A stretch of DNA of 64,000 nucleotides from Comamonadaceae bacterium. GTDB lineage: Bacteria; Pseudomonadota; Gammaproteobacteria; Burkholderiales; Burkholderiaceae_C. The notes beneath the pieces were generated by a model that had not been told where the DNA came from, did not search any database, and was given only the letters and a program-made list of their open reading frames with translations. The stretch is taken from the NCBI GenBank assembly GCA_947372745.1, contig CANBUY010000008.1, positions 1 to 64,000 on the forward strand, given 5' to 3'. Positions 1-39,024 of this stretch are shown here, piece by piece. The first letter of the stretch is position 1, and the number at the start of each line of letters is the position of its first letter. The translations under genes were made by a program, and so were the position numbers.

Positions 1-257
1 ATCGAGCACGGGCCGATGACCACCAGCAGGCGGTCATCCGTGCCAGCCATGATGTCGTGAATACTGTGGCGGGTGTCGCTGATCAGCGTCTCGATCGCGG
101 TGCCGCGAATCGGGAAGAATCGAATCAAATGCTCTGGAGGGGGTAACACGGTGATGTCCTTGATGCGTTCGTCGTCGGTCTGGCTGGTGCGGTCGGTGGG
201 ACGGGCAGCAGTCGCATACCAGGTCTCGGTGCTGGCGACGTTGGCTTGTGATGTCAT
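1..257 (-). CDS. aroG: 3-deoxy-7-phosphoheptulonate (DAHP) synthase, class I, 5' part
   Basis: Catalyses the first committed step of the shikimate pathway, condensing phosphoenolpyruvate with erythrose 4-phosphate in the cytoplasm. Only the first 85 or so codons are in the window. The visible N-terminus carries the family signatures LPPPEHLIRFFPI and LLVVIGPCSI, the latter being the conserved strand that begins the TIM barrel. The ATG at 257 is preceded by GGAG about 8 bases upstream, which fixes the start. It lies downstream of tldD on the same strand but is separated from it by an aromatic leader peptide and an intrinsic terminator, so it probably has attenuation control. Which feedback class (Phe-, Tyr- or Trp-sensitive) it belongs to cannot be judged from this part. 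Confidence 0.9.
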   Translation of the reverse strand, partial: MTSQANVASTETWYATAARPTDRTSQTDDERIKDITVLPPPEHLIRFFPIRGTAIETLISDTRHSIHDIMAGTDDRLLVVIGPCS

Positions 258-300
258 GGTGTATCTCCTAAATTCAAAAAAATTAAGTCAAACAAGCATA

Positions 301-330
301 AAAAAACCGCCGGGGTGGCCGGCGGTTTTT
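301..330 (-). terminator. Intrinsic terminator in the aroG leader (attenuator)
   Basis: Read on the minus strand, a 7-bp GC stem (CCGCCGG at 325-319, CCGGCGG at 313-307) closes a 5-base loop. It is extended by A-T pairs and followed by a run of six T at 306-301. It sits about 45 bases upstream of the aroG start codon, so it stands in front of the gene rather than after one. Together with the leader peptide it forms the classic attenuator layout. It could also end tldD transcription. Confidence 0.85.
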
Positions 331-370
331 GGAAGATCAGGACGTTTTTTTCAGGTACGTTCAGAACTCT

Positions 371-430
371 CTACCGCCGGGGGGCGCTTGAGAACCAAAA
401 ATAGCTAAAGTAAAAACTAACTGACTTCAT
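371..430 (-). CDS. Aromatic leader peptide controlling aroG by attenuation
   Basis: A 19-codon frame on the minus strand reads MKSVSFYFSYFWFSSAPRR and stops at TAG (373-371). Residues 6-13 are F Y F S Y F W F: four Phe, two Tyr and one Trp in eight codons. The last sense codons contain CCGGCGG (380-374), identical to the 3' arm of the downstream terminator, so this segment can pair with the 5' arm (325-319) as an anti-terminator. A ribosome stalled on the aromatic codons would leave 380-374 free, whereas a ribosome at the stop codon would cover it and let the terminator form. No strong ribosome-binding site was seen, and the promoter is not obvious in the 37 bases after tldD. It is too short for ordinary gene calling. 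Confidence 0.8.
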   Translation of the reverse strand: MKSVSFYFSYFWFSSAPRR

Positions 431-466
431 AAGTTGCAATGTAGCACAGTCCAGGCACGCTTTGGC

Positions 467-37432: not shown

Positions 37433-37540
37433 AGCTGGTTACGCACAATGCGCATGGTTAATAGGTTGATTTATTCAAAATACCGACGAAGCACCTTTTC
37501 TAAAAAGGCGAATTTTGAATGCCATAATAGCGGCTTGGAA

Positions 37541-37622
37541 CCGGGAGAGACTTTGAACAATCTCCTTGTAAAAAGCGCCGAAGGAGCAACCGCCCCGGAA
37601 TCTCTCAGGCAAAAGGACCGGT
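37541..37622 (+). ncRNA. Glycine riboswitch, first aptamer
   Basis: The signature GGGAGAGACT begins at 37543, CGCCGAAGGAGCAA follows in the middle and CTCTCAGGCAAAAGGACCG closes at about 37602-37620. These are the conserved P1/P3 elements of the glycine aptamer. A -10-like CATAAT at 37523-37528 lies just upstream. Confidence 0.92.
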
Positions 37623-37745
37623 ACCAAGCAACACACTCTGAAGAGTGATTGGGTTTCGTCACCCGGTCCACCGCAGGAGCAAGCGACCTTCCGGTTTAAC
37701 CCGGCTGCGTCGTGAATCTCTCAGGTCCAAAACAGAGGGGGCGAT
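37623..37745 (+). ncRNA. Glycine riboswitch, second aptamer
   Basis: A second aptamer repeats the pattern, with CCGCAGGAGCAAGCGACC near 37671-37688 and AATCTCTCAGGTCCAAAACAG near 37715-37735, followed by GGGGG. The tandem arrangement is typical of cooperative glycine sensors. A small hairpin (37746-37765, GGTTTTGA/TCAAAACC) follows with no U-tract, so the expression platform may act on translation or by another route. Confidence 0.88.
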
Positions 37746-37797: not shown

Positions 37798-39024
37798 ATG
37801 AAAAATATAGCTGTTATCGGTGGTGGTATCACGGGCGTCACCACGGCCTATGCGCTGGCCAAACGCGGTTTTGCCGTCACCTTGTTTGAAAAACACCGCT
37901 ACGCCGCCATGGAAACCTCGTTTGCCAACGGCGGGCAACTCTCTGCCTCAAATGCCGAGGTCTGGAACCACAGCTCAACCATCTACAAGGGCATCAAGTG
38001 GATGCTCAAGAGCGACGCCCCCCTGCTGGTGAACCCCAAGCCCAGCTGGCACAAGATTTCGTGGTTTGCCGAGTTCATGGCAGCCATGGTGAACTACGAA
38101 AAAAATACGATTGAGACCGCGCGCCTCAGCATTGCCGCTCGTGAGCACCTGCTGGGTTGGGCGGCGCAAGAAGGCATCGACTTTGACCACAAACCCAAAG
38201 GCATCCTCCACATCTACCGGGACAAGGCCGACTTTGACCATGCAGGCAAAGTCTCGCGCCTGTTGGCGCTGGGCGGCTTAAGCCGTCAGGCGGTCACGCC
38301 CACAGAGATGCGCGCCATTGAACCCACGCTGGCGGGCGACTATTACGGTGGCTACTTCACACCCAGCGACTCCACCGGCGACATCCATAAGTTCACCACC
38401 GGACTGGCCGCTGCGGCTGAGCGCTTGGGTGTGGTGACTTTGTACGGGCAAGACATCAGCAAGGTGGCCAGCGGTGCACAAGGCGTGCACATCACCGCCA
38501 CAGAATCAGGCATTGAGAACACGCATCAGTTTGACGGCGTGGTGATCTGCGCTGGCACCGCCAGCCGCCAGCTGGCTGCCCAACTGGGCGACCGCGTGAA
38601 TGTGTACCCGGTCAAGGGCTACTCCATCACCGTCAACCTGCGCGACGCCCAAAGCCGGGCCAGCGCGCCTATTGTGAGCTTGCTGGACGACGCGACCAAA
38701 CTGGTCAGCAGCCGTTTGGGTGACGACCGCTTTCGGGTGGCAGGCACCGCTGAATTCAATGGCTTTAACCGCGACATTCGCGCCGACCGCATCCGCCCTC
38801 TGGTGGAATGGGTGCAGCAATGCTTCCCCGGCGTCAAGACCGACAGCGTGGTGCCTTGGGCCGGCCTGCGCCCCATGATGCCCACGATGCTACCCCGCGT
38901 GGGCAAGGGCAACAAGTCCAATGTGTTCTATAACACCGGCCACGGCCACTTGGGCTGGACGCTCTCCGCCATCACCGCCGAGATGATCAGCGAAGTGGTC
39001 AGCGGCGCTTACCCGGCGCAGTAA
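37798..39024 (+). CDS. dadA: D-amino-acid dehydrogenase (DadA-type FAD oxidoreductase)
   Basis: Oxidatively deaminates D-amino acids, passing electrons to the respiratory chain. Glycine control suggests that glycine or a related amino acid is its physiological substrate. The 408-residue protein starts with the dinucleotide-binding loop IAVIGGGITGVTTAYALAKRGFAVTLFEKH. It has the DadA segment ETSFANGGQLSASNAEVWNH and a C-terminal FAD loop VFYNTGHGHLGWTLS. It stands alone behind the riboswitch, with no dadX or glycine cleavage genes adjacent. Confidence 0.92.
   Translation: MKNIAVIGGGITGVTTAYALAKRGFAVTLFEKHRYAAMETSFANGGQLSASNAEVWNHSSTIYKGIKWMLKSDAPLLVNPKPSWHKISWFAEFMAAMVNYEKNTIETARLSIAAREHLLGWAAQEGIDFDHKPKGILHIYRDKADFDHAGKVSRLLALGGLSRQAVTPTEMRAIEPTLAGDYYGGYFTPSDSTGDIHKFTTGLAAAAERLGVVTLYGQDISKVASGAQGVHITATESGIENTHQFDGVVICAGTASRQLAAQLGDRVNVYPVKGYSITVNLRDAQSRASAPIVSLLDDATKLVSSRLGDDRFRVAGTAEFNGFNRDIRADRIRPLVEWVQQCFPGVKTDSVVPWAGLRPMMPTMLPRVGKGNKSNVFYNTGHGHLGWTLSAITAEMISEVVSGAYPAQ

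Follow-up and report, generated by a model that had tools for sequence, protein, structure and literature searches.

The window, that is, the whole stretch of 64,000 nucleotides that was analysed, opens with the first part of aroG, the gene for DAHP synthase, on the minus strand. The gene is cut after 85 codons because the window begins contig C8; the genome is fragmented into 217 contigs, with a completeness of 85.78% and a contamination of 6.41%. The 85 AroG residues match the NCBIfam AroG and aroFGH models with E values of 4e-14 and 4e-13; these scores are below the curated cut-offs because the protein is cut by the contig end. AroG residues 81-376 are found on another contig (G000:C76), and that AroG is 90% identical to a relative's. 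Upstream, on the same strand, is a tldD-like gene with PmbA/TldD domains (467-1927), whose end lies 36 nt before the ATG of a short leader open reading frame. A candidate attenuator element spans positions 299-448 of the minus strand, and the parts from the leader to the aroG start lie between 448 and 255:

438-448, minus strand: predicted extended -10 promoter TGTGCTACATT, with the hexamer TACATT at 443-438, 7 nt before the leader ATG
371-430, minus strand: leader open reading frame MKSVSFYFSYFWFSSAPRR*, 19 codons, no Shine-Dalgarno sequence seen
392-415, minus strand: regulatory codons F-Y-F-S-Y-F-W-F
390-394, minus strand: region 1, UUCUC, comprising the last Phe codon and two bases of a Ser codon; pairs with 367-371
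374-380, minus strand: region 2, CCGGCGG, 5′ strand of the antiterminator, within the leader open reading frame
367-371, minus strand: region 2′, GAGAG, partner of region 1
361-363, minus strand: UGA that closes the leader in the frame of the same-genus relative L150 (...GGREF*), out of frame in the window
319-325, minus strand: region 3, CCGCCGG, 5′ arm of the terminator and partner of region 2 in the antiterminator
307-313, minus strand: region 4, CCGGCGG, 3′ arm of the terminator
300-306, minus strand: T7 tract of the intrinsic terminator
265-269, minus strand: Shine-Dalgarno sequence AGGAG of aroG
3-257, minus strand: aroG (DAHP synthase), first 85 codons, ATG at 257-255, cut by the contig end

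The initial annotation had pointed to a 19-codon frame upstream of aroG in which seven of eight consecutive residues are Phe, Tyr or Trp, and this frame is present (430-371, with FYFSYFWF at 415-392). A run with at least seven aromatic residues in eight codons occurs at exactly one place in the six frames of the window and in none of 30 first-order Markov simulations. The CCGGCGG of the leader (380-374) is, as had also been noted, identical to the terminator 3′ arm (313-307). The terminator behind the leader was equally well placed, although its details are corrected here: the leader stop is 40 nt and not 41 nt from the first base of the stem when A-T pairs are counted, the tract is T7 and not T6, and the stem has 12 pairs, 7 of them G-C. 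A 136-nt piece of the leader folds at -49.1 kcal/mol, compared with -29.7 (sd 3.35) for shuffled sequences (z -5.8; none of 200 shuffles as low). The complementarity of regions 2 and 3 is weak for a single locus, as 8.8% of shuffled leaders reach it.

AroG was found in 195 of 200 family genomes, a count that includes the genome of the window. Among the other 194, upstream DNA was taken at the best hit in 69, those that scored highest (125 were left out), and 80 named loci, the best 80 of 588 candidates, were added. This gives 150 loci (the window and L003-L151), picked as close AroG matches, some of which represent the same or nearly the same genome twice (L011/L055, L060/L147). L041, with 7 nt of upstream DNA, was left out of the counts, and 149 loci were testable. 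With a leader defined as a short open reading frame in which four or more of ten residues are aromatic, an aromatic-run leader precedes aroG in 142 of the 149, and a terminator follows it in all 142, as detected by a lenient finder that was run without a shuffle control. Among the named loci 72 of 80 carry the leader, distributed over Comamonadaceae (34), Sphaerotilaceae (13), Burkholderiaceae (2), Alcaligenaceae (1), Nevskiaceae (1) and records without a named family (21). The leader of L150 reads MKSVSFFFSYFWFSSATGGREF.

The seven testable loci in which no leader was found are four from Polynucleobacter, two from Cupriavidus, and L110. The four Polynucleobacter loci (L090, L091, L094 and L097) display a -10-like TAAAAT a few bases before the ATG of aroG itself; their appearance would fit a deletion of leader and terminator that left aroG leaderless. 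The attenuator is retained in two further loci of this genus, L077 and L083. The leader is also present in L079, from a record titled Solimonas sp. SE-A11 (Nevskiales) with an AroG 82% identical to the query, which may reflect transfer, or else an assembly that is contaminated or wrongly labelled.

Covariance model R1 was trained on 50 of the 142 close loci; of the named ones among these, some may lie outside the family of the window. It matched 64 of the 250 order genomes searched, and 56 of these 64 belong to other families than the window's. The gene next downstream is aroG at 63 of these 64 matches, L219 being the exception. Model R2, trained partly on the order matches of R1 and built without the UUCUC:GAGAG helix (1:2), matched 64 of the 250 order genomes at E<=1e-7, in 14 families, and had no match in the other 186. 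A search of the class with R2 gave 107 of 370 genomes at E<=0.01, many with terminator-only matches. When 16 of the 27 new loci were checked, four strong matches were before aroG and 12 weak ones were not, and weak matches were for that reason left uncounted. Four strong matches of the class search are outside the order, all before aroG.

In a phylum search with R1 there were matches in 26 of 299 genomes, including four of other classes at E<=1e-4, all four before aroG; nine of nine loci fetched from this search are before aroG, and leaders in the other classes include TASFWYFYSS and ATNYFWYFSY. Model R3, applied to the class of genome G945, matched 9 of 241 genomes at E<=1e-6, one of which (G945) was in the training set. 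Six of the other eight are before aroG, among them L267, whose aromatic run is poor; of the remaining two, one ends at a contig edge and the other, probably a false match, is without aroG. In the window's own class R3 matched 5 genomes of the 232 searched, of which three are from the family and the other two, already known, from family f60. Among the loci of other classes (L251-L254 and L261-L266), several have runs of the YFWYF type, and in some a TATA-like element directly precedes the leader ATG. The patchy distribution would be consistent either with vertical loss or with transfer together with aroG.

Within the source genome R1 found no second copy; four further matches all have E>1, of which three were inspected and are not at aroG, and the fourth (L154) overlaps the aroG terminator on the opposite strand. 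A second AroG paralog (L221, G000:C3:27686-28681), 58% identical to the query, is situated close behind another open reading frame, and no attenuator is visible by eye at this paralog.

The pairing between leader and terminator was followed through the same loci. When the whole leader is scanned, 141 of the 142 loci have their best 7-nt complement of region 3 at a distance of 6-16 nt behind the final aromatic codon; the sole exception is L020, where the finder misplaced the terminator arm. In ten loci region 3 is CCGUCGG, and nine of these carry a compensating A in region 2 (CCGACGG or CCGACGA), the tenth having a G.U pair. The compensating A is found in none of the other 132 loci, and region 4 stays G. 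On a quick AroG tree, in which some rows have only about 41 residues, this case comprises three arm changes and four leader changes, with one independent arm/leader pair on supported branches and three on all branches.

Counts of double-changed cells point the same way, with shuffle controls that ignore relatedness: for 2:3 there are 8 versus 1.3 in shuffles on alignment A3 and 24 versus 10.4 on the order-wide alignment A4, and for 1:2 plus 3:4 there are 57 versus 30.9 on A4. For 2:3, 9 and 43 of 500 shuffles (A3 and A4) have as many pairs with a double change; further pair types, counted for 2:3 on A3 and A4 and for 1:2 plus 3:4 on A4, are not above the control (124, 154 and 470 of 500 shuffles as high). 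RNAalifold on A3 finds 1:2 and 3:4, with four of the five 1:2 pairs recovered unaided and no compensating change in either helix, and 3:4 plus 1:2 hardly vary on that alignment. On A4 the 1:2 helix has double changes in four of five pairs, and 79.1% of its cells are paired. Across the order, a CUGGCGG leader, a CCGCCAG arm and a CUGGCGG 3′ arm are in full agreement in 17 of 55 loci; these are the 55 kept of 60, five having been dropped because the arm finder failed (four before aroG and L219, which is not). The leader CCGGCGG, proposed in the initial annotation to form an antiterminator with the terminator 5′ arm, is thus seen to covary with that arm on both A3 and A4, and the close-relative case rests on few independent events.

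Aligning the upstream regions of relatives, the check that had been suggested, therefore favours attenuation: aromatic run, terminator and complementary arm recur before aroG in close relatives, in the order and beyond, and the pair covaries. In all likelihood aroG is preceded by a ribosome-mediated transcription attenuator, as far as this can be read from sequence comparison. The terminator might instead be an ordinary one that serves the upstream tldD-like gene, with an open reading frame that arose by chance. The end of that gene on the same strand, 36 nt before the leader ATG, fits such an arrangement, and no leader peptide would be needed. It is scarcely credible given that the aromatic run is found in 142 of 149 loci, that the element is before aroG in 63 of 64 order matches, and that the leader arm covaries with the terminator arm.

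Where transcription starts was judged from the promoter. With the 142 close loci aligned at the leader ATG, position -9 is T in 100 and position -8 is T in 104, position -1 is a pyrimidine in 135, and no conserved -35 element is seen. The best-scoring hexamer, picked without a background control, has the form TAnnnT in 138 of 142, with TGn ahead of it in 137 and a distance of 6-8 nt to the ATG in 137. A two-hexamer scan found no sigma-70 promoter. The extended -10 pattern with up to two mismatches occurs in 27 of 100 window shuffles; the copy in the window has no mismatch. A Shine-Dalgarno match of at least 4 nt precedes the leader ATG in 1 of 142 loci; the rate in random windows is 15%, and for an ATG close to the start of aroG (best of several ATGs) it is 120 of 142. 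From the position of the promoter, the transcript probably starts at or adjoining the leader AUG. An extended -10 element 7 nt before the ATG, combined with the lack of a Shine-Dalgarno sequence, predicts that the leader peptide is leaderless, as is that of Sinorhizobium meliloti trpL.

Across the wider order, 28 of 55 loci have a TAnnnT hexamer, at varied spacings, and Shine-Dalgarno matches are absent in 54 of 55. These loci were counted irrespective of start codon, and a small number of model matches (among them L197, L200, L201 and L206) begin without one. The transcript may often start further upstream of the leader ATG in these bacteria.

Start site, stalling and read-through, as we infer them, would be combined as follows. 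Transcription would begin at or adjoining the leader AUG, and the leader would be read without a Shine-Dalgarno sequence. When charged Phe, Tyr or Trp tRNA is scarce, the ribosome would stall on the aromatic codons and cover region 1; region 2, 6-16 nt past the last aromatic codon, would then be free to pair with region 3, and the 2:3 antiterminator would block 3:4, such that RNA polymerase reads into aroG. When charged tRNAs are abundant, the ribosome would be positioned over region 2, 3:4 would form, and transcription would end approximately 42 nt before aroG. With no ribosome present, 1:2 could hold region 2 and 3:4 would form again. The leader thus very probably raises the level of the first enzyme of the aromatic pathway when those amino acids are scarce.

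These ribosome states were folded at equilibrium, as short segments, with kinetics left out and the ribosome edge taken at P+16 (regions 3 and 2 of L020 were set by hand). With a ribosome stalled so that the last aromatic codon is in the A site, 2:3 forms in 139 of 142 nascent RNAs that extend up to region 3. In the nascent RNA with no ribosome, 2:3 forms in 40 of 142 and 1:2 in 97, and in the full RNA with no ribosome 3:4 forms in 141 of 142, 1:2 in 134 and 2:3 in none. In a looser control of the stalled state, region 3 pairs with some contiguous segment in 241 of 710 shuffles. Stalls at codons 0 to -8 yield 2:3 in 85-98%, and there is no sharp limit on which of the aromatic codons count. A sharp four-codon stalling window (Y-F-W-F), considered on the basis of footprint geometry, was dropped since folding gave no sharp edge.

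A short terminated RNA with an AUG at its start would also be compatible with control exerted mainly through translation of aroG, or by the leader RNA in trans, with termination secondary. The terminator found after the leader in 142 of 142 loci argues against this, and such control is considered very unlikely.

In E. coli trpL and pheL, the regulatory codons lie over region 1, and the pairings 1:2, 2:3 and 3:4 exclude one another. The aroG leader shares this layout and differs in its target, aroG, and in having codons for three amino acids. The presence of the third, mutually exclusive helix UUCUC:GAGAG makes the predicted layout trpL-like and not a simple two-arm switch. The initial annotation had described a simple ribosome-stalling switch with the arm at the stop codon, and neither the third helix nor the position of the stop codon in most relatives agrees with that description. 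A stop codon within 11 nt of the region 2 start is found in 11 of 142 loci only, the window included, and the arm-on-stop geometry is therefore not the design. The commonest position of the leader stop is 26 nt past the region 2 start (63 of 142 loci), followed by 20 nt (28 loci); a ribosome resting at a stop 26 nt past the region 2 start would not cover region 2.

The window belongs to the smallest group of leaders by reading frame. Region 2 is read in frame 1 in 115 of the 142 loci, in frame 0 in 24 and in frame 2, that of the window, in 3. The C run at 379-384 is not of the same length as that of L150, so that the window's leader ends PRR* at the arm and not GGREF* as in L150; this shift may be either a real change or an assembly error. 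L122 (PRR) and L149 (TRR) end similarly. On the tree the frame after the aromatic codons shows 15 or more changes, and the RNA arm was kept; judging by these loci what is conserved past the aromatic codons is the RNA. A leader with a wandering frame but a fixed RNA arm represents a natural experiment that separates the function of the peptide from that of the RNA.

This bears on nascent-peptide arrest of the TnaC type, whereby the peptide would stall the ribosome on a free aromatic ligand and not through codon starvation. The aromatic order and a GGRE end are recurrent among many close relatives, as arrest would predict. A conserved C-terminal peptide resembling that of TnaC was nevertheless not found among the 142 loci, given the frame changes and the three frames of region 2: the peptide end is not kept and the RNA is. 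The aromatic order also drifts across the order of bacteria (FYFYFF, FFFFFYFSY, SYFWYYF). Peptide arrest is thus highly improbable at this locus.

Which amino acids the attenuator senses was approached by a codon survey. From 196 loci, 190 distinct leaders were obtained after removal of duplicates and of L182, where the best region 2 precedes the end of the run. In its final four positions the run has mostly Y, F, W and F, in that order. Of the 190 leaders, 142 contain all three aromatic residues, 39 contain Phe and Tyr but no Trp, 6 have no aromatic residue other than Phe, and 3 combine Phe with Trp. Leaders that respond to more than one amino acid are not new in principle, as ilvL and thrL illustrate. 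A tentative reading, a real possibility that falls somewhat short of probable, is that of a multivalent leaderless attenuator scattered in Pseudomonadota, in which one peptide monitors Phe-, Tyr- and Trp-tRNA and a shortage of any of them would open aroG, which stands at the entry to all three pathways; the terminated RNA could act elsewhere as a small leaderless mRNA. The element suggests a directly testable way in which bacteria of this order may adjust the flow into the shikimate pathway to the demand for all three products.

It is also conceivable, if rather unlikely, that attenuation senses essentially Phe and that the Tyr and Trp codons are bystanders, as has been reported for AroR of Corynebacterium glutamicum. 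Phe is the most frequent residue both in the run as a whole and at its last position (159 of 190 leaders); 48 of 190 leaders miss at least one of the three aromatics in ten codons, and 74 of 190 miss at least one in the last four. According to a review, Tyr availability is without effect on the AroR-controlled operon (PMC11802643). Against Phe-only sensing, the 142 leaders with all three residues include 116 that have them within the last four codons, and W at -1 (113 of 190) and Y at -3 (114 of 190) are kept more constantly than the sensing of Phe alone would require. From the codons we infer that the attenuator would respond to all three amino acids and not chiefly to Phe. An argument from rare codons (TTT in 272 of 430 leader Phe codons versus 178 of 857 in aroG, over 100 loci) was dropped because four other genes of the window favour TTT too (53 TTT to 24 TTC).

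The class of mechanism is known from trpL, pheL and AroR, and the aroG RNA itself is new to Rfam 15. The Rfam Phe_leader model (RF01859) scores 21.5 bits versus a gathering threshold of 55, and the element is not a member; the Rfam 15 scan of the window at gathering and lax thresholds gave no above-cut-off match to it. NCBIfam and Pfam searches with three leader peptides found no family, and the leader was not matched in phage records. The leader had been thought undescribed for aroG in Comamonadaceae. No description for Burkholderiales was found in the open-licence full-text literature searched, although Vitreschak 2004 and Lopatovskaya 2010 could hold prior art; the claim does not extend to DAHP synthase leader peptides in general, which, in the source portions available, are known in Corynebacterium and Acholeplasma.

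In C. glutamicum, the aroF operon is preceded by the AroR leader peptide with Phe-Tyr-Phe before the DAHP synthase gene, and stalling raises transcription (PMC4046766, PMC11802643). The available text reports a response to Phe and not to Tyr (PMC11802643). AroR resembles the aroG leader in having Phe-Tyr-Phe in a leader peptide before a DAHP synthase gene; it differs in that it belongs to an actinobacterium and has an F-Y-F run, with no Trp mentioned in the portions available, and the likeness drawn here is one of description. The Acholeplasma uORFC-13-1 before aroF is, in the available excerpt, a computed upstream open reading frame with Phe coding next to a terminator (PMC8632094). Compared by description, it differs from the aroG leader in having 24 representatives, from one genus and environmental sequences, and at least one Phe codon (PMC8632094). 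The same excerpt mentions an earlier attenuation hypothesis for E. coli aroF (PMC8632094).

Leaders of Shewanella aroF and aroH are likewise computed cis-regulatory RNAs before DAHP synthase genes of a proteobacterium, according to the section available, where aroF is given a possible attenuator that senses Tyr-tRNA; this is set beside the aroG leader by description (PMC2659441). The RNA of the S. meliloti trp attenuator begins at the ATG of the leader open reading frame, as is predicted for the aroG leader, and differs in its Trp codons, in its trpE(G) target and in having a known 5′ end where that of the aroG leader is predicted (PMC7298713, as partly available). The trp attenuation scheme is also given in PMC1183508, and a survey of aromatic regulons places TrpR and TyrR regulons in gammaproteobacterial lineages (PMC5343134). 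In Comamonadaceae hosts the element could serve as a usable part with which the production of aromatics is controlled or deregulated.

No T-box match was found in the window, where the sole match at the gathering threshold is a glycine riboswitch aptamer elsewhere (37532-37630, plus strand; RF00504, 67.9 bits). It is situated before an open reading frame on the plus strand (37798-39024) that, judged by eye, resembles an FAD-dependent D-amino acid dehydrogenase.
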